A program made the translations under genes and the position numbers. This document shows positions 4,377 to 17,799 of a stretch of DNA of 21,939 bases, piece by piece. Below the pieces are notes generated by a model, which was not told the DNA's origin, did no database searches, and saw only the letters and a program-made list of their open reading frames with translations. Origin of the DNA: Deltaproteobacteria bacterium RBG_13_61_14 (GTDB lineage: Bacteria > RBG-13-61-14); contig MGQK01000010.1 in assembly GCA_001797815.1 (NCBI GenBank), positions 1-21,939 on the forward strand, read 5' to 3'. The stretch's first letter is position 1, and the number at the start of each line of letters is the position of its first letter.

Positions 4377-6353
4377 ATGAAACTGAAAATACTGCCAGAT
4401 AATATCACCATCGAAGTCGCCGCGGGCATGAATTTGCTGGATGCCCTCAGCCAGGTCCAGATCGCGCTCGACAATTCCTGCGGGGGCGAAGGGATCTGCG
4501 GCCAGTGCCGGGTCCAAATCCGGGAAGGCGGGATCGAGGCCGAGCAAGGCCCGCGGCAATCCAACGAGGAATACGAACAGGGTTGGCGCCAGGCCTGCCT
4601 GGCGACCCTCTCCGCGGACGTTGCCATTTTCATCCCCGAGGATTCCCGGCTCGAGCGGGAGGTAATTTACCAGCGGATCGCTCCCTCCGGCCAATACCTG
4701 ACCGACGCGCAAATCGCCCGGCTCAACCCGGGCTGGCAGTTTGATCCGCCCTTGAAAAAGTATTTCGTGGAGCTGCCGATCCCCACGCTCAAGGACAACA
4801 TCAGCGACCTCGACCGGCTCTTGCGCGAACTGCGCAAACATCATGGCCTGCGCAAGGTCTCGGTGGATTTTCCGATCCTCCCGAACCTTCCCGAACTCCT
4901 TCGCCAGGACCATTTCCGGGTGACGGCAACGGTGGCGGAGGTCAAAGGGGAGGAAGGCTCGCAATCCCCCCGGCGGCGGCCCAAGCTGATCCGGGTGGAG
5001 CCGGGCGATACGCGGTCGCGGCATTACTCTTTCGCGGTGGACATCGGCACCACCACCATCTCCGGCCAGATCCTGGATTTGAACAAGAAAAAGCCTTTGG
5101 CCACTCAAACCCAATACAACGCCCAGGTCCGGCACGGGGCCGACGTGATCAGCCGGATCGTCTATGCCGGGAGCCGGCCCGACGGGCTCGCCACCTTGCA
5201 GCGGCTGGTGGTTGAGACCATCAACCACGTGCTGGCCGAAGCGGTGAAAAAATCGAAGATCCAGCTCGACAACATCAGCCACTTGAGCGCGGCCGGCAAC
5301 ACCACCATGACCCACCTGCTCCTGGGGCTGAACCCCCGCTGGCTCCGCATGCAGCCTTATACCCCGGCCATGAACCAGGCGCCGCCGGTCCGGGCCAAGG
5401 ACCTCGGCATCAAAGTCGGTCCCTGGGCCCACCTCTACACCTTCCCCAGCGTGGCCAGCTACGTGGGCGGCGACATCGTCGCCGGCGTGCTCGCCGCCGG
5501 CATCTACAAGCGCTCGCCCCTGACCCTTTACATTGACATCGGCACCAACGGCGAGATCGTGCTCGGCAACCGCGACTGGATGCTCACCGCCTCCTGCTCG
5601 GCCGGCCCGGCCTTTGAAGGCGGCGGCATCAAGCACGGGATGCACGCCGGCCCGGGCGCCATCGAGCGTTTTACCCTGGACCGCCGGACCGGCGAGGCCC
5701 GGGTGGCCACCATCGGCCACCATCCGGCCCTGGGCTTGTGCGGGTCCGGGATGATCAACACCGCGGCCGAGTTGCTGCGGGCCGGGGTGATAGACCCGAA
5801 CGGCAAGGTGAATCTGCACTGCGGCTCGCCCCTGGTCCGGGAGGGGGAGGACGGTCCGGAAGTGGTGATCGCCCCGGCCGGCCAGACCGCGAGCGGGCAG
5901 GACATCACCTTGACCGACCTGGACCTGGACAACCTGCTCCGGGCCAAGGCGGCCATGTATGCCGGCTACCACACCTTACTCCAGCACGTGGGCCTGAATT
6001 TCGAGGCCGTCCAGGAAGTGTTGATCGCCGGCGCTTTCGGCAACTACCTGGACATCGAGAACGCCATCACCATCGGGCTGCTGCCCGACCTGGACCGCAA
6101 TCGTTTCAAGTTCATCGGCAACGGCTCCTTGCTCGGCGCTCGGCTGGTGAGTCTCTCCAACGCTCTTCTCGACGACGCCGAGCACGCCGCTCGCCTGATG
6201 ACCAACGTGGAATTGAGCGACAACCCCATTTTTATGGACCAATACATGGCCGCGCTTTTCCTGCCCCATACCGACCAGAAGCTGTTTCCCGGCATCGCCC
6301 GTCGGATCCAGGAGAACCGCGGGGAATCCGCAGCTCCAGGGGTGCATCCATGA
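4377..6353 (+). CDS. acsV: Reductive activator of corrinoid iron-sulfur protein (RACo; ferredoxin plus ASKHA domains)
   Basis: RACo uses ATP hydrolysis to drive electrons uphill onto the Co(II) corrinoid of AcsC/AcsD when it has been accidentally oxidised. The 658-aa product has an N-terminal plant-type [2Fe-2S] ferredoxin domain with ligands Cys35, Cys41, Cys44 and Cys74 (C-G-G-E-G-x-C-G-x-C). A linker/middle domain follows, then a C-terminal ASKHA ATPase region with phosphate motifs around Asp222 (VDIGTTT) and Asp387 (DIGTNGEIV). GSAPAFEGGG-like and GLCGSGM-like segments appear as SAGPAFEGGG and LGLCGSGMI. Length agrees with bacterial RACo of about 630 residues. The ribosome site is weak, so the gene may depend on coupling to folD. 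Its stop overlaps the start of cooC (ATGA, 6350-6353). Related proteins (RamA-like) activate methylamine corrinoid proteins, but the context here supports AcsV. Confidence 0.92.
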   Translation: MKLKILPDNITIEVAAGMNLLDALSQVQIALDNSCGGEGICGQCRVQIREGGIEAEQGPRQSNEEYEQGWRQACLATLSADVAIFIPEDSRLEREVIYQRIAPSGQYLTDAQIARLNPGWQFDPPLKKYFVELPIPTLKDNISDLDRLLRELRKHHGLRKVSVDFPILPNLPELLRQDHFRVTATVAEVKGEEGSQSPRRRPKLIRVEPGDTRSRHYSFAVDIGTTTISGQILDLNKKKPLATQTQYNAQVRHGADVISRIVYAGSRPDGLATLQRLVVETINHVLAEAVKKSKIQLDNISHLSAAGNTTMTHLLLGLNPRWLRMQPYTPAMNQAPPVRAKDLGIKVGPWAHLYTFPSVASYVGGDIVAGVLAAGIYKRSPLTLYIDIGTNGEIVLGNRDWMLTASCSAGPAFEGGGIKHGMHAGPGAIERFTLDRRTGEARVATIGHHPALGLCGSGMINTAAELLRAGVIDPNGKVNLHCGSPLVREGEDGPEVVIAPAGQTASGQDITLTDLDLDNLLRAKAAMYAGYHTLLQHVGLNFEAVQEVLIAGAFGNYLDIENAITIGLLPDLDRNRFKFIGNGSLLGARLVSLSNALLDDAEHAARLMTNVELSDNPIFMDQYMAALFLPHTDQKLFPGIARRIQENRGESAAPGVHP

Positions 6354-7144
6354 GCCGGATACTGGCGGTGGCCGGCAAAGGCGGCACCGGCAAAACCACC
6401 CTGGCCGCCCTCGTCCTTCGGCATCTGCTTCGCGCCGAAAAAGGCCCCTTCCTGGCCGTGGACGCGGACCCGGACGCCAACCTCGGGGTCATGCTCGGCG
6501 CCCGGCCGGAGAAGAGCGTGGGCCAGGTGCTCCAGGATTTCCTCGAACAAAAGCTCTCCATCCCCCAGGGGATGCCCAAGCAGCAATGGCTCGAACTCCA
6601 GCTCAACACCGCCATCTACGAGAGCAAAGGCCTGGACCTGGTCGAGATGGGCCGGCCCGAAGGCCCGGGCTGCTACTGCTCGGCCAATGCCGTGCTCCGC
6701 GACTTCCTGGAGCGGCTCTCGGAGAATTACCAGGCGGTGGTGGTGGACAACGAAGCCGGGATGGAGCACCTTTCCCGACGCACCGCGGGCAAGATTGACC
6801 AGCTCTTCATGGTCTCCGACGCTTCGGCCAAGGGCATCCGCACCGTGCTCAGCCTGCTCGAGCTGATTGATGAGCTCAAGCTCAACCCCGGCCGCAAGTT
6901 CCTGGTGGTGTGCCGGGCCGAAAAACTCGATCCCCGGCTCGAAGCCCAGGTGGCCAAGCTGGACGTGGAATACCTGGGCGCCGTGCCCCAGGATCCGAAT
7001 ATTGTCGAATCCGATCTCAGCGAACGTTCCCTGCTGGAACTGCCGGGCGACTCGCCGGCGGTTCGGGCAGTGGCTGAAATTATGGCGGCCGCCCAAGCTC
7101 CTGCGCAAGTGGAGCCGGTCGCGAAAGTCATGGAAAGGAGGTAA
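6350..7144 (+). CDS. cooC: CooC/AcsF-type Ni-insertion ATPase (first copy)
   Basis: This is a MinD/ParA-class (SIMIBI) NTPase that helps load nickel into CODH and/or ACS. The 264-aa protein begins with the deviant Walker A GKGGTGKTT (residues 9-17, signature Lys10 and Lys15). VDADPDANLG follows at about residue 41. The CXC motif is Cys108-Tyr-Cys110 in GPGCYCSAN, which in CooC dimers forms the metal-binding site. A VVVDNEAGMEHLSRRT switch/Walker B segment is also present. The ATG overlaps the acsV stop by 4 bp, indicating translational coupling. The 3' end carries the AAGGAGG for the next gene. Position between acsV and acsD corresponds to acsF in acetogen clusters, so it may serve AcsB rather than AcsA. 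I cannot tell which from sequence. Confidence 0.92.
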   Translation: MSRILAVAGKGGTGKTTLAALVLRHLLRAEKGPFLAVDADPDANLGVMLGARPEKSVGQVLQDFLEQKLSIPQGMPKQQWLELQLNTAIYESKGLDLVEMGRPEGPGCYCSANAVLRDFLERLSENYQAVVVDNEAGMEHLSRRTAGKIDQLFMVSDASAKGIRTVLSLLELIDELKLNPGRKFLVVCRAEKLDPRLEAQVAKLDVEYLGAVPQDPNIVESDLSERSLLELPGDSPAVRAVAEIMAAAQAPAQVEPVAKVMERR

Positions 7145-7149
7145 AGGCG

Positions 7150-7374
7150 ATGGCGGAGAAGTGGCCGACCGTGACCAAGGACTCGTTTGACGGGAGCAAA
7201 GTGGAAATTTTGGGGGAAACCTATGAACCCGGCAAACCCGGTCCGGAGGCGCCCGGGCTCTGGCGGAACAAGCTGCAGGACCGCAAACAGATGCTTAAGT
7301 ACCTGGAGACCGGGCTGCGCTATTGGTATGCCAAAGAAGGCTATGGTTCGGAGAAGCGCAAGAACCCGGCCTGA
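7150..7374 (+). CDS. Conserved-looking 74-aa operon protein of unknown function
   Basis: I do not recognise this protein. It is real on context: AAGGAGG at 7135-7141 (inside the end of cooC) lies 8 bases before the ATG. The gene follows cooC by 5 bases and uses the same GC-rich codons as its neighbours. The product is small, charged and soluble, with no cysteines and no membrane segment. A Gly/Pro-rich N-terminal half (ETYEPGKPGPEAPG) precedes an amphipathic, aromatic C-terminal half (KYLETGLRYWYAKEGYG). Without Cys or a His cluster it is unlikely to carry metal by itself. It could be a small subunit, an assembly partner of CooC/AcsD or a chaperone; these are guesses from position. It is not an upstream piece of acsD, whose own N terminus is complete. 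Confidence 0.75.
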   Translation: MAEKWPTVTKDSFDGSKVEILGETYEPGKPGPEAPGLWRNKLQDRKQMLKYLETGLRYWYAKEGYGSEKRKNPA

Positions 7375-7384
7375 AGCAGTTCAC

Positions 7385-7470
7385 AGTTCCCGGTTCCTGG
7401 TTCGCGGTTGATGGTTTCGGATTGGACTCTTTTCCGTCAACCGTGAACCAGGAACCAGGAACCGGGAACC
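7385..7470 (+). repeat. Long imperfect hairpin between the 74-aa gene and acsD
   Basis: The left arm at 7385-7414 (with GGTTCCTGGTTC) is the reverse complement of the right arm at 7434-7470 (GAACCAGGAACC), apart from a 7-base extra repeat unit and three mismatches. The loop is about 19 nt. The right arm is built of tandem GAACCAG/GAACCGG units. It ends 5 bases before the acsD ribosome site. The unit looks like a dispersed GGTTC repeat that has landed in the operon; as RNA it would form a stable stem. Confidence 0.8.
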
Positions 7471-7475
7471 AAGAA

Positions 7476-7482
7476 AAGGAGG
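7476..7482 (+). promoter_or_regulatory. Shine-Dalgarno fixing the TTG start of acsD
   Basis: AAGGAGG lies 8 bases before TTG at 7491. The acsD frame stays open upstream through the hairpin repeat, so without this site a longer and wrong start would be chosen. Confidence 0.85.
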
Positions 7483-7490
7483 ATAGGATC

Positions 7491-8435
7491 TTGGCAGTGG
7501 AATTCGTCAAACAGGATTATACCGGAAAGATCCGGGAAGTGACCATCGGCGCCGGGGACAAGGCCGTCAAGGTCGGCGGAGCCAACTCGTATCCCTTCTA
7601 CCTTTTTGAAGGGGCGCTGCCCAACCCGCCCCGGATTGCCTGGGAGGTCTGGGATGCCGAAACCGACCAGTGGCCCGAGGCCTGCAAGGAGCCGTTCGCG
7701 GACGTGCTCACCGACCCCCCGGCCTGGGCCAAGAAGCTGGTGGAGAAGCATGGCGCGGAGATGATCGCGCTCAAGCTGGTCAGCATTGACCCCAACGGCA
7801 AGAACGCCGACGCCAAGAGCGCGGTGGAAACGGTCAAGAAGGTGCTGGCCGCGGTCTCGGTGCCGGTGCTGGTCTTCGGGGTCAACAGCGTGGAGAAAGA
7901 CGCCGAGGTGCTGCGCCAGGTGGCCGAGGCCTGCGAGGGCAGGAACCTGGTGCTGGGGCCGGTGCAGGAACAAAACCACAAGGCCCTGGGCGCCGGCGCC
8001 ATCGGTTTCAAGCACACGGTGCTCGCGAGCACGCCGATTGACGTGAACCTGGCCAAGCAGCTCAACACCCTGCTCGGGAACCTGGGGGTGAAAGAAGACA
8101 AGCTGCTCATGGATCCCACCACCGGCGGGCTGGGCTATGGCATCGAATACACCTACTCGGTGATGGAGCGCGACCGGATGGCCGCCCTGGTCCAGCAGGA
8201 CGAGAAGATGCAGCAGCCCCTGGTCTGCAACCTGGCCCCCGAGGTCTGGAAGACCAAGGAGGCCAAGCTTTCCGCCCAGGACGACCCCAAGATGGGCGAG
8301 GCCAAGACCCGGGGCATCACCCTGGAGGCCATGACCGCCACCCTGCTGCTCCTGGCCGGCGCCGATGTCCTGGTCATGCGCCACCCCGAAGCGGTGGCCA
8401 AGATCAAGACCCTGATCAAGGAGCTGAGCGCTTAG
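7491..8435 (+). CDS. acsD: Corrinoid iron-sulfur protein small subunit (CODH/ACS delta)
   Basis: AcsD is the TIM-barrel small subunit that pairs with AcsC to hold the cobalamin that carries the methyl group from AcsE to AcsB. The 314-aa product has normal length and typical segments: VGGANSYPFYLFEG near the N terminus, ALKLVSIDPNGKNAD, VLVFGVNSVEKD, LLMDPTTGGLGYGIEYTYS and the C-terminal LLLLAGADVLVMRHPEA. The start is TTG, chosen because it follows AAGGAGG by 8 bases and begins the conserved sequence. An upstream start would translate the repeat. It precedes acsA by about 50 bases. The identification is firm from family resemblance and context. Confidence 0.94.
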   Translation: MAVEFVKQDYTGKIREVTIGAGDKAVKVGGANSYPFYLFEGALPNPPRIAWEVWDAETDQWPEACKEPFADVLTDPPAWAKKLVEKHGAEMIALKLVSIDPNGKNADAKSAVETVKKVLAAVSVPVLVFGVNSVEKDAEVLRQVAEACEGRNLVLGPVQEQNHKALGAGAIGFKHTVLASTPIDVNLAKQLNTLLGNLGVKEDKLLMDPTTGGLGYGIEYTYSVMERDRMAALVQQDEKMQQPLVCNLAPEVWKTKEAKLSAQDDPKMGEAKTRGITLEAMTATLLLLAGADVLVMRHPEAVAKIKTLIKELSA

Positions 8436-8486
8436 GGCCGGCCAGCGCCAGGGGATGCAAGATTCAATAGGGAGTTGAAAGACATT

Positions 8487-10922
8487 ATGGATTCAGCATT
8501 GGTTATCGAGATTGTGGATCACCATGGGCGGGACCCGGACCGGTTGATGGAAATCATCCGGGACCTGCGCCTGCACCAATATGACCTTCCCGACCCGGTG
8601 ATTGAGCAAGTGGCCGAGCGCCTGGGCCTTGCGCTGGACCAGGTCCGGGCCGCGGCCGTAGCGCCGATCCTGAAAAAGCGCGGCCGGCCCAAGGGAAAGA
8701 AGAACAAGCCCAAGCTCATCTCCGAACCCAAGCCGAAAGTGAGCGTGGCCCCCCGGGTCATTCTCCGCAAGCGGCCCAAACCCGAGCCGTCCTTGGAAAC
8801 CGCAGCCGAGAGCCGGCCCCCGGTCCCGGCCGAGGCAGAAGAGCCGGCTCCGACTCCGCCGGCTCCCCCGCCGGCCACTGAAGAAAAAATCGCGCCGCCG
8901 GCTATAGCCGCGGTCAGCGAACCGCCTATGCCAGAACGTCGCGCGGAAGTTGATTCAACAAGGAGGTATCCGGAAATGACCGAGCCGAAACGCAGTGCGG
9001 ATCCCACCGTGGGTCCCCTGCTGGAAAAAGCGAAACAAGACGGAGCCGAGACCGCCTTTGACCGGGCAATGGAAGGTCAGAAGGCGATCTGCCAGTATGG
9101 CGCCAACGGCGTCTGCTGCCGGCTCTGCGCGATGGGGCCTTGCCGGATCAGTCTGAAAGAAGGCAAAGGCGCCGAGCGGGGCGTATGCGGGGCCACCGCC
9201 AATACCATCGCCGCCCGCAACTTCTGCCGCATGATCGCGGCGGGAGCCGCGGCCCATTCCGACCATGCCCGGGCCGTGGCCGATACCTTTATCCTCGCCG
9301 CCAAGGGTGAAATCCCCGGCTTCCAGATCAAGGACGAGCAAAAGCTTTACCAACTCGCCTTGGATCTGGGAATCGCCATCGGCGACCGCAGCGTCAAGGA
9401 AATCGCCATCGAGGTGGGCGAGAAATGCCTGGCCGAGTTCGGCCGGCAGGAAGGGGAACTCCTTCTGGTCAAACGCGCGCCGCTCAAGCGCCAGGAGATC
9501 TGGCGCAAGCTGGGCATGACCCCTCGCGGCATTGACCGCGAGGTGGTGGAAATGATGCACCGCACCCACATGGGCGTGGATCAGGATTACCGCAACCTCA
9601 TCCTGCAAGGCTCCCGCACCTCGCTCGCCGACGGCTGGGGCGGCTCGATGATCTCCACCGAACTCCAGGACATCATGTTCGGAACCCCCCAACCCATCGC
9701 CAGTGAAATTAACCTGGGCGTGCTGAAAGCGGACGAGGTCAACATCATCGTGCACGGCCACGAGCCTCTGCTCTCGGAGATGGTGGTCGTGGCTTCCCGC
9801 GATCCCGAGCTCCTGGCTTTTGCCAAAGAAAAAGGCGCCAAGGGCATCAACCTGGCCGGGATCTGCTGCACCGCCAATGAGATCCTGATGCGCCACGGCA
9901 TCCCCATTGCCGGCAACTTCCTGCAGCAGGAGTTGGCCATCGTCACCGGCGCGGTGGACGCGATGGTGGTGGACGTGCAGTGCATCATGGAGAACCTGGC
10001 CGAGATATCCAAGTGCTACCACACCAAGCTCATCACCACCAACTACCGGGCCAAGATCATCGGCGCCGAGCACATCCAGTTTGAAGAGCACGACGCCATC
10101 AACACCGCCAAGAAGATTGTCCGGACCGCGATCGAAAATTATCCTCGACGCGACCCCAAGAAAGTCAGCATCCCCCAGGAAAAGAGCGATATGGTCGTGG
10201 GCTTCTCCCATGAGACCATCAACTATCTCCTGGGCGGGCTCTTCCGCGCCAGCTACCGGCCGCTCAACGACAACATCATCAACGGCCGCATCCGCGGCAT
10301 CGCCGGGGTGGTCGGGTGCAACAATGTCCGCACCGAGCATGACAGCGCCCATCTCGCCATGATCAAGGAGCTGTTGAAGAACGACGTGATCGTGCTCACC
10401 ACCGGCTGTGCGGCCATGGCCTGCGGCAAGGCCGGGCTCCTCACCCCCGAGGCGGCCAAGCAATACTGCGGGCCCGGATTGGCCGAGGTCTGCGAGACCG
10501 TGGGCATCCCCCCGGTGCTGCACATGGGCGCCTGCGTGGACAACAGCCGCATCCTCATCGCCGCCACCGCGGTGGTCAAAGAGGGCGGGCTGGGCGACGA
10601 CATCTCCGACTTGCCCGCGGCCGGAGCCGCGCCCGAGTGGATGAGCGAAAAGGCCATCGCCATCGGCCAATACTTCGTGGCCTCCGGCGTGTTCACCGTG
10701 TTCGGGGTCACCTTCCCGATTATGGGCGCGCCCCAGGTCCGCGACCATCTCTTCTCCGAACTGGAAGGGATGGTGGGCGGCAAGTGGGCCTTTGAGCCGG
10801 ATCCGGTCAAGGGCGCTAAGCTCATGATCGAGCACATTGACAAGAAGCGCAAGGCGCTGGGCATTGACAAGGCCCGGGAGCGAGTGCTCTACGACATGGC
10901 CATGCGCCGGGAAATGGAATAA
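8487..10922 (+). CDS. acsA: Ni-Fe-S carbon monoxide dehydrogenase catalytic subunit, with N-terminal extension
   Basis: This enzyme reduces CO2 to CO at the C-cluster and feeds it to AcsB. The canonical CODH begins at an internal ATG (8976), giving 648 aa, normal for CooS/AcsA. In that numbering Cys39 and Cys47 (D-cluster) and Cys48, Cys51, Cys56 and Cys71 (B-cluster) are present. C-cluster candidates are the His260-Gly-His262 motif, Cys297/298, Cys336, Cys448, Cys478 and Cys520, so it looks fully active. The frame, however, is open upstream to an ATG at 8487 (811 aa), with GGGAG 12 bases before it. The added 163 residues contain a NuoE N-terminal-like helical segment (about 1-58), an AT-hook-like KKRGRPKGKKNK (63-74) and a Pro/Ala/Glu-rich linker (about 77-155). 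A TTG at 8475 abuts the ribosome site and is unlikely. Both long and short forms may be made. Confidence 0.95.
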   Translation: MDSALVIEIVDHHGRDPDRLMEIIRDLRLHQYDLPDPVIEQVAERLGLALDQVRAAAVAPILKKRGRPKGKKNKPKLISEPKPKVSVAPRVILRKRPKPEPSLETAAESRPPVPAEAEEPAPTPPAPPPATEEKIAPPAIAAVSEPPMPERRAEVDSTRRYPEMTEPKRSADPTVGPLLEKAKQDGAETAFDRAMEGQKAICQYGANGVCCRLCAMGPCRISLKEGKGAERGVCGATANTIAARNFCRMIAAGAAAHSDHARAVADTFILAAKGEIPGFQIKDEQKLYQLALDLGIAIGDRSVKEIAIEVGEKCLAEFGRQEGELLLVKRAPLKRQEIWRKLGMTPRGIDREVVEMMHRTHMGVDQDYRNLILQGSRTSLADGWGGSMISTELQDIMFGTPQPIASEINLGVLKADEVNIIVHGHEPLLSEMVVVASRDPELLAFAKEKGAKGINLAGICCTANEILMRHGIPIAGNFLQQELAIVTGAVDAMVVDVQCIMENLAEISKCYHTKLITTNYRAKIIGAEHIQFEEHDAINTAKKIVRTAIENYPRRDPKKVSIPQEKSDMVVGFSHETINYLLGGLFRASYRPLNDNIINGRIRGIAGVVGCNNVRTEHDSAHLAMIKELLKNDVIVLTTGCAAMACGKAGLLTPEAAKQYCGPGLAEVCETVGIPPVLHMGACVDNSRILIAATAVVKEGGLGDDISDLPAAGAAPEWMSEKAIAIGQYFVASGVFTVFGVTFPIMGAPQVRDHLFSELEGMVGGKWAFEPDPVKGAKLMIEHIDKKRKALGIDKARERVLYDMAMRREME
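8960..8966 (+). promoter_or_regulatory. Internal Shine-Dalgarno inside the acsA frame
   Basis: A perfect AAGGAGG sits 9 bases before an in-frame ATG at 8976, which is where CODH homologues normally start (MTEPKRSAD). It is stronger than the GGGAG site of the long form. This supports a second, shorter CODH product from the same frame. Confidence 0.8.
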
Positions 10923-10969: not shown

Positions 10970-13174
10970 GTGTCAAAGTTGATTGCATCTGCGGCGATTC
11001 GGGGGGCGCACAAGATTGTGGCCCACGCCGAAGCCAAGTTCAAGGAAGCGCGGGAAAAGTTCGGCGAGAACCATGAGGTCGGCTTTCCCAATACCGGGTA
11101 TTATTTGCCCATCATCTACGGCATCCTCGGCCGCAAGGTCGAGAAGATCAAGGACATGGCGCCGGTGCTCCAGGTTTGCCGGGAGATCCTGCCCCCGCCG
11201 GTCAAGGAGAAGAACGCCCTGCCCTACCTGGCGCCGGCGCTGGACGCGGGCATGGCCACCTTCTTCGCCGAGGAGATCATCGAGGCCATCCGCTACCTGG
11301 AATATCCGGATTTTTACGTCCTGGGCGAAGATCCCACGGATGACAACCTCTGGCTGGGCGCGGCGGATGACATCATCCTGCGCAAGCGGGGGGTCGAGTT
11401 TGTGGACGGCACGGCCCCGGGCTTTGCCGCGGTGCTGGGCGCGGCGCCGACCAAGGAGATCGCGGCCCGGATCGCGCTCGAGCTCCAGGAAAAGAACCTT
11501 TACGTGTTCATGGCCGCCGAGCACCAGGGCCGGCGCTTCTCCGAGCAGCTCAAGGAGGCCGGGGTCCAGATCGGCTGGCCCACCCGGCTGGTCAGTTTCG
11601 GACCGGACGTCTCGGCCACCGTGTTCGCCATGGGCTTTGCCACCCGGGCGGCCATGAGCTTCGGCGGGATCGAGCCGGGCGACTTCCGCAAGATCCTCAT
11701 CTACAACAAAGACCGGGTCTTCGCTTTCGCCCTGCCGCTCGGGTTTGTCACCGACGAGTGGTATGCCAACGCGGCCGGGGCCATCAACTGGGGTTTCCCG
11801 GTCATCGCCGATTCGCCCATCCCCCAGGTGCTGCCTACCGGCATCTGCACCTACGAGCACGTGGTCAGCAATATTCCCCACAAGGACATTGTCCAGAAGG
11901 CGGTGGAAGTCCGCGGCCTGAAAGTCACCGTGCACAAGGTGCCGGTGCCCGTGTCCTACGGCCCGGCTTTTGAGGGCGAGCGGGTCCGGGGCGAGGATAT
12001 CTACCTCGAAGCCGGCGGCGGCCGCACCCAGGCGATCGAGCTGGTGCGGATGAAGAACATGAACGAGGTCGAGGATAACAAGATCGAGCTGTTCGGCCCG
12101 GACCTCAAGGACATTCAGCCGCCGGCCAAACTGCCGCTGGCGATCATGGTGGAAGTGTCCGGCCGCAACATGCAGGAAGACTTTGAGCCGATCCTGGAGC
12201 GGCAGATTCACCACCTGATCAACTATGCCCAGGGCGTGATGCACATTGGGCAGCGCGATATCGCCTGGGTGCGCATTGCCAAGCAGGCGGTGGAAAAAGG
12301 CTTTAATTTAAAGCACTTCGGCTCGATTCTTCACGCAAAATATCATGAGGATTTTGGGAGCATTGTGGACAAAGTCCAGGTTCGGATTTACACCGAATTG
12401 GACAAGGTCAAGGAGTTGACCGAGCAGGCCCGCAAGATTCACCGGCATCGGGACGAGCGGCTGGCCGGCATGACCGACGAGGATACGGACCCATTCTACT
12501 CCTGCACCCTGTGCCAGAGCTTTGCTCCCAACCACGTCTGCATCGTCACCCCGGAGCGGACCGGCCTGTGCGGGGCCTACAATTGGCTGGACTGCAAGGC
12601 CAGCAATGAAATCAACCCGACCGGCCCCAACCAGCCGGTGCCCAAGGGCGAGGTGCTGGACCCGGTTTACGGCCAGTGGAAAGGGGTCAACGAGTTCGTC
12701 AAGAAAGCCAGCCGGGGCGCGGTGGAAAATTACGACGCCTACGGCATCCTCCGCCAGCCCATGACCAGCTGCGGCTGCTTCGAGTGCATCGCCGCGGTGC
12801 TGCCCATGTGCAACGGCTTCATGGCGGTGGACCGCGATTACACCGGGATGACCCCGGTGGGCATGAAGTTCACCACCCTGGCCGGCTCGGTGGGCGGCGG
12901 CGCCGTGACCCCCGGCTTCGTGGGCCACTCCAAGTATTACATCACCAGCCGGAAATACCTTTCGGCCGAGGGCGGGATCAAGCGCATGGTGTGGCTGCCC
13001 AAGCGGCTCAAGGAAGAGATCCGGGACCGCATCGAAAAGCGCTCCCAGGAAATGGGAGTTCCGGATCTGATTGACAAGATCGCGGACGAAACCGTGGCGA
13101 CTACCGAAGAGGAAGTGATGAAATACCTCACCGAGAAACAACATCCGGTCCTGGCCATGGACCCGCTCTTCTAA
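10970..13174 (+). CDS. acsB: Acetyl-CoA synthase catalytic subunit (CODH/ACS alpha/beta type)
   Basis: AcsB condenses CO, the corrinoid-bound methyl and CoA at the Ni-Ni-[4Fe-4S] A-cluster. The 734-aa product matches bacterial AcsB (about 729 aa), including the N-terminal domain that docks to CODH. The A-cluster ligands are complete: Cys512, Cys515, Cys524 and Cys534 (C-x2-C-x8-C-x9-C) for the cubane and bridge, and Cys601-Gly602-Cys603 for the distal nickel. A GTG start follows AAGGAGG (10955-10961) by 8 bases. The gap from acsA is 47 bases. A C-terminal LAGSVGGGAVTPGFVGH segment is present. No truncation or frameshift is seen, and the enzyme should be functional. Confidence 0.97.
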   Translation: MSKLIASAAIRGAHKIVAHAEAKFKEAREKFGENHEVGFPNTGYYLPIIYGILGRKVEKIKDMAPVLQVCREILPPPVKEKNALPYLAPALDAGMATFFAEEIIEAIRYLEYPDFYVLGEDPTDDNLWLGAADDIILRKRGVEFVDGTAPGFAAVLGAAPTKEIAARIALELQEKNLYVFMAAEHQGRRFSEQLKEAGVQIGWPTRLVSFGPDVSATVFAMGFATRAAMSFGGIEPGDFRKILIYNKDRVFAFALPLGFVTDEWYANAAGAINWGFPVIADSPIPQVLPTGICTYEHVVSNIPHKDIVQKAVEVRGLKVTVHKVPVPVSYGPAFEGERVRGEDIYLEAGGGRTQAIELVRMKNMNEVEDNKIELFGPDLKDIQPPAKLPLAIMVEVSGRNMQEDFEPILERQIHHLINYAQGVMHIGQRDIAWVRIAKQAVEKGFNLKHFGSILHAKYHEDFGSIVDKVQVRIYTELDKVKELTEQARKIHRHRDERLAGMTDEDTDPFYSCTLCQSFAPNHVCIVTPERTGLCGAYNWLDCKASNEINPTGPNQPVPKGEVLDPVYGQWKGVNEFVKKASRGAVENYDAYGILRQPMTSCGCFECIAAVLPMCNGFMAVDRDYTGMTPVGMKFTTLAGSVGGGAVTPGFVGHSKYYITSRKYLSAEGGIKRMVWLPKRLKEEIRDRIEKRSQEMGVPDLIDKIADETVATTEEEVMKYLTEKQHPVLAMDPLF

Positions 13175-15640: not shown

Positions 15641-15832
15641 ATGGCTTTGAAAAAACGAAAAAAAGCGGCGAAAACTTCAAGTTTGGAACGAGAAATAGCT
15701 GAATTGGAAGCGAGGCTGACGCCTGAGGCACGCGCCCTGTATGAAGAGGCCATGGAAATCCGGCGCCGGATTGGTAAAGTTCCTTTTAAAGTAACCGATC
15801 TGGTCCGCGAAATTCGGGGAGAGAATGACTGA
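15641..15832 (+). CDS. Putative antitoxin of a PIN-domain toxin (VapB-like)
   Basis: The product is a 63-aa basic-then-acidic helical protein. It has a Lys-rich N terminus (MALKKRKKAAK), a predicted coiled or long-helix middle (LEREIAELEARLTPEARALYEEAMEIRRRIG) and a short FKVTDLVREIRGEND tail of the kind that wraps the toxin. It overlaps the toxin gene by 8 bp, the classic type II arrangement. A purine-rich GGGGAAAAGGGG ribosome site precedes it. Codon use is AT-richer than the acs genes. I infer antitoxin from the partner and size; no DNA-binding fold (ribbon-helix-helix or AbrB) is evident. Confidence 0.7.
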   Translation: MALKKRKKAAKTSSLEREIAELEARLTPEARALYEEAMEIRRRIGKVPFKVTDLVREIRGEND

Positions 15833-16283
15833 GCGCTTGGTGCTGGACTGCTCGGTCGCTGTGAAATGGTATTTGCTCGATGAAGAGGACTCCGACCTGG
15901 CGAGATTCTTCCTTTTAAGTTTTCTCAACCATGATATTGAATTCCATGCGCCTGAATTGCTGAAATACGAAGTGGCTCATGCCCTGACCAAGGCCCAGCG
16001 CTCGCAAAAACGGCGATTTTCTCAAACCGAGATTCAAGAGGGGTTTCATCATTTTCTTAAACTTCCCGTTAAGTTCCATTCTTTGTCTGATTCGGTCCTT
16101 GAAGAGGTAATCGCTTTCGCCAACCGCTTTCATCGGAACTTCTATGACCGCTGTTACCTTTGGCTGGCGGAGCAATGGGACTGTGCCTGGCTAACCGCTG
16201 AAATGAAATTCCACGGGCCTTTTCCCCTGGGCTTTCCTAAGAATCGAATCCGACTGCTTGGTTCAAAGCCACCCAATGAGTAA
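15825..16283 (+). CDS. vapC: PIN-domain ribonuclease toxin (VapC-like)
   Basis: The 152-aa PIN-domain protein shows Asp8 in LVLDCSVAVKWY, Glu49 in PELLKYEVAHAL and Asp108 in FYDRCYLWLAEQ. Family members typically cleave tRNA or rRNA. The usual fourth acidic position TAD is TAE here (Glu126), a conservative change that could keep Mg2+ binding. The gene overlaps its antitoxin by 8 bp and the DUF3786 start by 8 bp. Base composition is AT-richer than the acs operon, in line with later arrival. The toxin identity is well supported; activity is not known. Confidence 0.85.
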   Translation: MTERLVLDCSVAVKWYLLDEEDSDLARFFLLSFLNHDIEFHAPELLKYEVAHALTKAQRSQKRRFSQTEIQEGFHHFLKLPVKFHSLSDSVLEEVIAFANRFHRNFYDRCYLWLAEQWDCAWLTAEMKFHGPFPLGFPKNRIRLLGSKPPNE

Positions 16284-17010: not shown

Positions 17011-17799
17011 ATGAAAATTGCCATTTCCGGCAAAGGCGGGGTGGGCAAGACCACGCTGGCCGCCTTCCTGGCCCGGGCCTTGAAAGGCAAGGGCTACAAG
17101 GTTCTTTGCGTGGACGCGGACCCGGATGCCAACCTGGCCGGCGCGCTCGGATTCAAGGATGCGGGTTCCATTACGCCCATTGCGGAGATGAAGGAGTTGA
17201 TCGAGGAGCGCACCGGGGCCAAGCCCGGGACCATGGGCGGCTTTTTCAAGATGAACCCCAAGGTGGACGACTTGCCCGATGCCCTGGCCAAGGAGCAGGA
17301 CGGGATCCGGCTCATGGTCATGGGCACGGTCAAGACCGGCGGCTCGGGCTGTGTCTGCCCGGAGTCGGTGCTGCTCAAGAACCTGATCCAGCACCTGCTG
17401 ATCGAGCGCAAGGACGCGGTGATCATGGACATGGAGGCCGGGATCGAGCACCTGGGAAGGGCCACGGCCTTTGCGGTGGACCTGATGATCGTGGTGGTGG
17501 AGCCGGGCCGGAGGAGTTTGGAAACCGCGGCCGCGGTGAAGAAGCTCGCGGCGGAGATCGGGATCAAGAAGGTGGCCGCGGTGGGCTGCAAGGTGCGAAA
17601 TGACCAGGACGCCGAGTTCCTGAAGCGCGAACTCGACATCCCCTTCCTCGGCTACCTCCCCTTCCGCCAGGAAATCATCCAGGCCGACCTGGAAGGCAAG
17701 CCCGCCTTCGAACTCGCCCCGGACCTCCTGGTCGTGGCTGAAGACCTGGTCAGCAAGATCGAAGCAATGCTGAAAAAAGATATACTAATGGGAGCATGA
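17011..17799 (+). CDS. cooC2: CooC-type Ni-insertion ATPase (second copy)
   Basis: The 262-aa SIMIBI-class NTPase has the deviant Walker A GKGGVGKTT (8-16), VDADPDANLAGALG, the metal-binding CXC motif Cys114-Val-Cys116 (GSGCVCPES) and the MDMEAGIEHLGRATAF switch region. CooC1 of Rhodospirillum-type systems has its CXC at nearly the same position (112/114). This copy therefore looks closer to the CODH-maturation CooC, whereas the copy after acsV is more AcsF-like. Only an AGAAGG-like ribosome site is seen, about 13 bases before the ATG. The last codons and the stop lie in the left arm of an inverted-repeat element (17783-17910), so the natural C terminus may have been replaced. Confidence 0.93.
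   Translation: MKIAISGKGGVGKTTLAAFLARALKGKGYKVLCVDADPDANLAGALGFKDAGSITPIAEMKELIEERTGAKPGTMGGFFKMNPKVDDLPDALAKEQDGIRLMVMGTVKTGGSGCVCPESVLLKNLIQHLLIERKDAVIMDMEAGIEHLGRATAFAVDLMIVVVEPGRRSLETAAAVKKLAAEIGIKKVAAVGCKVRNDQDAEFLKRELDIPFLGYLPFRQEIIQADLEGKPAFELAPDLLVVAEDLVSKIEAMLKKDILMGA

Follow-up and report, generated by a model that had tools for sequence, protein, structure and literature searches.

A NuoE-type domain in frame with the carbon monoxide dehydrogenase of Deltaproteobacteria bacterium RBG_13_61_14

Does the open frame ahead of acsA in the acs operon of Deltaproteobacteria bacterium RBG_13_61_14 extend its Ni-containing carbon monoxide dehydrogenase (CODH), and what would such an extension encode? 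The window, meaning the whole stretch of DNA analysed here (21,939 nt; assembly GCA_001797815.1, contig MGQK01000010.1, positions 1 to 21,939, forward strand), carries folD, genes for an AcsV/RACo-like protein and a CooC-like ATPase, acsD, acsA, acsB, acsC, acsE, and genes for a DUF3786 protein and a second CooC-like ATPase. The two CooC-like P-loop ATPases of this one operon (6350-7144 and 17011-17799, both +) differ from each other. Also, a 152-aa ORF that separates acsE from the DUF3786 gene (15825-16283, +) has by eye the look of a PIN-domain (VapC-like) protein and no Pfam or NCBIfam match, and translation of the gap upstream of acsD (7323-7470, +) in one frame shows phrases that recur (VPGSWF..., NQEPGTGNQE), which suggests that a short repetitive element lies there. 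A search of the genome returned acsA as its single CODH match; the match to TIGR01702 (anaerobic Ni-CODH catalytic subunit) is full-length and above the curated cut-off, covering residues 171-793 of the 811 in the open frame.

Two in-frame starts for acsA

The acsD gene (TTG start at 7491, AAGGAGG at 7476, product of 314 aa) ends with a TAG at 8433-8435 that lies in the same frame as acsA, and from there the frame stays free of stops until acsA ends at 10922. A sequence-only reading of the window had described acsA as open for about 163 codons before its canonical start, and this was borne out: translation from the ATG at 8487 would yield 811 aa, and 163 codons separate this start from the canonical ATG at 8976 (648 aa). 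The span given in that reading begins at 8475, which is merely an in-frame TTG with Shine-Dalgarno pairing of only -3.1 kcal/mol; homology begins at 8487, and the ATG there is taken as the long start.

Each of the two in-frame starts has a ribosome-binding site. The AAGGAGG of the canonical start was found exactly where it had been placed, and the GGGAG of the long form is the weaker site, as had been proposed (Table 1). Anti-Shine-Dalgarno duplex energies for acsA, acsB, acsC, acsD and acsE range from -11.3 to -11.9 kcal/mol, each with AAGGAGG. Since the inner site equals in strength the sites of the remaining acs genes, and the outer one falls short of them, translation should yield mostly short CODH, with the 648-aa form dominant and a tailed 811-aa form in the minority. 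Within the long form the AAGGAGG is part of Thr-Arg-Arg and is read as AGG AGG; because AGG specifies only ~3% of arginines in the other genes of the window, it is the Shine-Dalgarno sequence and not codon preference that shapes this stretch. No relevant RNA elements, tRNAs, promoters or terminators were found near the acsD/acsA junction. The idea of a dual-start gene therefore holds for the two starts and their ribosome-binding sites, the inner much the stronger, and the two isoforms remain predicted.

Table 1. Features of the acsD/acsA junction; positions are those of the window, except in the last line, which refers to locus L139
Feature	Positions	Strand	Basis or remark
acsD (corrinoid Fe-S protein small subunit)	7491..8435	+	NF003377, 527.9 bits, over cut-off; PF03599
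GGGAG, weak Shine-Dalgarno of long form, 12 nt before ATG 8487	8470..8474	+	duplex -8.2 kcal/mol
Extension residues 1-58, NuoE/HydC/BfuC-type N-terminal four-helix domain, without [2Fe-2S] thioredoxin domain	8487..8660	+	PF01257 below cut-off; NuoE profile; helix prediction; Foldseek
KKRGRPKGKKNKPK, residues 63-76, AT-hook-like basic segment	8673..8714	+	read from translation; no Pfam hit
Residues 77-163, basic, then Pro/Ala/Glu-rich linker, predicted disordered	8715..8975	+	structure prediction; codon bias lost from residue 106
AAGGAGG, internal Shine-Dalgarno of canonical acsA start, 9 nt before ATG 8976	8960..8966	+	duplex -11.9 kcal/mol
acsA, canonical 648-aa Ni-CODH	8976..10922	+	TIGR01702, 693.5 bits (cut-off 478)
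acsB (acetyl-CoA synthase), next gene of the operon	10970..13174	+	NF040764, 1102 bits
AcsD-linker-CODH fusion of L139	1316-4684	+	

Domain content and coding character of the extension

Residues 1-57 of the extension aligned from Met1 with the N-terminal helical domain of NuoE/HydC/BfuC proteins, at 26-41% identity to individual NuoE-type proteins. PF01257 matched at E 0.0033-0.014 (15.7-17.7 bits), under its gathering cut-off of 24.8. A profile of 38 NuoE proteins returned E 2.6e-7 at Z=100000 and 97% in hhalign, and gave the extension 32.6 bits against 9.7 bits for the best of 20,000 shuffles, scores that are not fully independent because the profile was assembled from hits to this same query. 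AlphaFold run without an alignment predicted four helices (3-13, 17-29, 36-46 and 50-58) followed by disorder, with a mean pLDDT of 63, and in a Foldseek search with this model ranks 1-7 went to NuoE-type subunits from NAD-dependent formate dehydrogenases and from bifurcating enzymes, although the E-values were weak (0.4 or higher). The C-terminal thioredoxin-like [2Fe-2S] domain is absent; basic and Pro/Ala-rich sequence stands in its place and no Cys occurs in the 163 residues, so the extension cannot carry electrons by itself.

Openness of the frame is in itself weak evidence for a protein, since its chance probability is p about 0.014-0.02 and GC-rich shadow frames of 120-230 codons were found upstream of other CODHs, one of them ~230 codons long. 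These two observations are what would speak for a chance open frame in GC-rich DNA, devoid of protein meaning. However, residues 1-105 have gene-like codon statistics, resembling those of the neighbouring genes, in this frame only. Moreover, across the 79 relatives scored the open run upstream of the CODH start has a median of 25 codons, and only one other relative reaches 100 codons, with a run of Arg/Ser-rich shadow sequence. Together with the homology beginning at Met1, these results lift the extension above chance, and we disfavour a meaningless frame as very improbable.

The end of the extension behaves differently from its beginning. Residues 106-163 (the last ~58 codons, 8802-8975) use atypical synonymous codons, falling below every block of real genes, with a GC3 of 0.59 against 0.86, and this 3′ third is not clearly established coding sequence. 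A real coding piece of ~105 codons thus leads into acsA by way of a segment that has the appearance of young or relaxed sequence, or of sequence moulded by the ribosome-binding site. The proposal that a small upstream gene had been fused in frame to acsA accordingly fits the first ~105 codons, with their NuoE-type domain, codon bias and Met1-to-Met1 alignment.

Relatives and neighbouring NADH genes

The extension was absent from all 80 nearest CODH loci. Orthologues were sought in 29 CODH-bearing genomes, in 297 genomes of the phylum of the nearest CODH and in 145 sampled relatives, and the hits inspected were complete NuoE proteins. CODH itself was matched in 250 of 395 genomes of that phylum, 45 of 386 sampled relatives and 24 of 201 genomes of another phylum; among the matches listed, none but the CODH of the window carried homology to residues 1-57. 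Three long open frames taken up as possible extended CODHs (G205/L143, G339/L147 and G979/L155) turned out to be either shadow frames or plain read-through. The canonical Shine-Dalgarno sequence and start of acsA are conserved in relatives. Comparison with related acsA genes, suggested earlier as a check on conservation, therefore gave a negative answer, and the extension counts as lineage-specific, known from a single genome in the data searched.

Another kind of joining was found at the same junction. In three genomes (L139, L140 and L141) AcsD and CODH form one in-frame protein with a Pro/Ala-rich linker of ~150 residues between them, in open frames of 1123-1150 aa, and a fourth fusion is probable at L142, where it is cut by the contig edge. 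A literature search found no published account of an AcsD-CODH fusion. Like the CODH of the window, these proteins have a Pro/Ala-rich linker N-terminal to CODH, and three of the four have an internal Shine-Dalgarno-like stretch and ATG, whereas the tethered domain is AcsD instead of a NuoE-type domain. In L140-L142 the Shine-Dalgarno-like stretch lies 8 nt before an ATG at a common motif, MGQLTKDDIQ, placing the internal start 64-79 codons ahead of the CODH homology; L139 has no canonical Shine-Dalgarno sequence and ATG for CODH. Separately, many AcsD proteins of Desulfobacterota encoded directly upstream of CODH (L045, L049, L052, L054, L056, L067, L073, L091 and others) carry a ~200-residue K/A/E/P-rich disordered C-terminal tail, at the end of which there is often a short, conserved helix such as MVDKLINNLNRIHKR. 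The 314-aa AcsD of the window lacks such a tail, and no kinship was found between the extension and the tails of Desulfobacterota. Taken together, the fusions and tails indicate that linkers recur at the AcsD/CODH junction, of which the window holds a distinct version.

Genes for NADH modules also occur beside CODH. In G002/L028, of the window's own order, nuoF and a 261-aa nuoG-like Fe-S gene directly precede acsA (L028 1-1409, G002 C527), a gene order that suggests an NADH-linked CODH module, and L030 has the order nuoE-nuoF-nuoG-like-acsD-acsA. The presence of nuoEF near CODH/ACS has been reported in NPL-UPA2 Unc8 (PMC6305446). These operons share pathway and CODH neighbourhood with the window, but their nuo genes are separate and complete and their CODH has no extension. 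A comparable link is found in Codh-Bfu operons, which combine BfuABC with CODH subunits and have been reported only in Firmicutes (PMC9304861). There, as in the window, gene arrangement connects a Ni-CODH to a NuoE/NuoF-type (BfuC/BfuB) NADH module; however, BfuC is a complete separate subunit with bfuA and bfuB in the cluster, whereas in the window a BfuC-like N-terminal domain is fused to CODH and no bfuB is nearby. Neither nuoF nor bfuB was found in the window, and bfuA, bfuB and bfuC are not clustered with its CODH.

The domain type would fit docking on a NuoF/BfuB-type partner. In cryo-EM structures of NiFe-HydABCSL, binding of FMN/NADH releases the C-terminal Fe-S domain of HydC and the N-terminal domain of HydB, both of which then become invisible, while the rest of HydC, its N-terminal part, stays resolved (PMC8880783). 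From this continued visibility we infer that the N-terminal domain of NuoE-type proteins is the docking part. The genome contains 7 complete NuoE and 7 NuoF hits, all 7 of the latter on other contigs; each NuoF adjoins a NuoE, and no orphan NuoF was found among them. Every NuoF found thus already has its own NuoE, and no free docking partner is evident. The earlier suggestion that a tail could change docking or electron supply agrees with the domain type and with the nuoEF neighbours of CODH in relatives, and is weakened by this pairing and by the lack of a nuoF gene in the acs operon of the window.

Competing explanations and significance

The arrangement in the window is real and unusual. 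As its best explanation we tentatively favour a fusion specific to this lineage, by which some molecules of the cell's single CODH would carry a NuoE-type docking domain; we infer both the making of two forms and the binding of the tail. An in-frame piece, composed of a NuoE/HydC/BfuC-type domain, an AT-hook-like segment and a Pro/Ala-rich linker, would have been inserted between acsD and acsA. Since this piece has no stop of its own, ribosomes starting at 8487 would have to make the 811-aa CODH, and those recruited by the strong internal Shine-Dalgarno sequence would make the ordinary 648-aa enzyme. CODH is a homodimer, so a mixture of dimers would be expected in which neither, one or both subunits are tailed. 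Most likely the tail would be a flexible tether that, through docking of its NuoE-type domain on an NADH flavoprotein of the NuoF/BfuB type, keeps an electron partner near CODH.

It is possible, though unlikely, that the slot instead holds a separate small gene, encoding the NuoE-type domain and its basic tail, whose stop is missing because of an error of assembly (indel or substitution) or because it mutated very recently, and that CODH is made as 648 aa only. Codon bias ends near residue 105-140, and stops lie just before acsA in the other frames (TGA 8951 in +2; TGA 8977 in +1, overlapping ATG 8976), so that a single shift would leave a normal boundary between two genes. The conserved canonical Shine-Dalgarno sequence and start would suit such a gene, as would the two nearest CODH loci, L013 and L014, which have a separate CooF-like ferredoxin gene of similar size in the acsD/acsA slot. 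Yet frame 0 is open to the end and looks like an ordinary disordered tail, translation in the alternative frames gives Arg-rich shadow sequence, and the contig bears no independent sign of error. Less probable still is a decaying remnant of a nuoE that once stood in the acs operon, as in L030, and is now untranslated or translated to no effect. The nuoE-nuoF pair of L030, the nuoF before acsA in G002, the restriction of recognisable NuoE sequence to the first third, the weak start site and the atypical late codons are all consistent with decay, whereas the basic segment at residues 59-105 is entirely gene-like in its codons and corresponds to nothing in NuoE, 180 codons have accumulated no stop, and no trace of nuoF or nuoG adjoins the extension.

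The extension might also be chiefly a nucleic-acid-binding or regulatory module, with HTH-like helices and an AT-hook, acting on DNA or on its own mRNA, its fusion to CODH being incidental. The basic segment resembles an AT-hook, a type defined by a GRP core that is flanked by basic residues and binds AT-rich DNA, and its DNA binding is putative; Sigma70_r3 matched residues 36-56 weakly (E 0.04), and homeodomains appeared at lower ranks of the Foldseek list. However, motifs like this AT-hook occur often in basic linkers, and the NuoE match spans the whole domain and scores better; we regard this possibility as improbable.

The favoured fusion is new as a variant and has clear precedents in kind, namely the Codh-Bfu operons, fused or extended CODHs and bacterial dual-start isoforms. 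N-terminal extensions (Cys motifs, His-rich) and fusions of Ni-CODH have been reported (PMC6344411); they resemble that of the window as lineage-specific N-terminal additions, but carry metal-binding motifs in place of a predicted folded docking domain on a long linker. The sequence-only reading knew of no such extension in AcsA proteins, which is upheld for this domain and is too broad for N-terminal additions at large, given these reports and the AcsD-CODH fusions found here. For aerR, likewise one gene with two in-frame N-terminal isoforms, both AerR forms have been shown in vivo, with a 41-residue difference between them (PMC6199135), whereas the predicted isoforms of the window lie 163 residues apart.

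A bolder version, which we think rather improbable as a whole, is that CODH hard-wires its redox partner: a minority isoform would bear the NuoE/BfuC helical anchor on a ~100-residue disordered leash, the internal start would set the number of dimers tethered to an NADH module, and, with the AcsD-CODH fusions, translationally controlled tethering would recur at the acsD-acsA junction. The finding bears on the electron supply to CODH/ACS, and on its direct feeding by NADH modules, in uncultured Wood-Ljungdahl bacteria. A CODH bearing a NuoE-type docking domain would, if true, be direct genetic evidence of a partner. In addition, the AcsD-linker-CODH fusions suggest that the acsD/acsA junction is a recurrent tethering site, which may interest engineers of carbon-fixation complexes.
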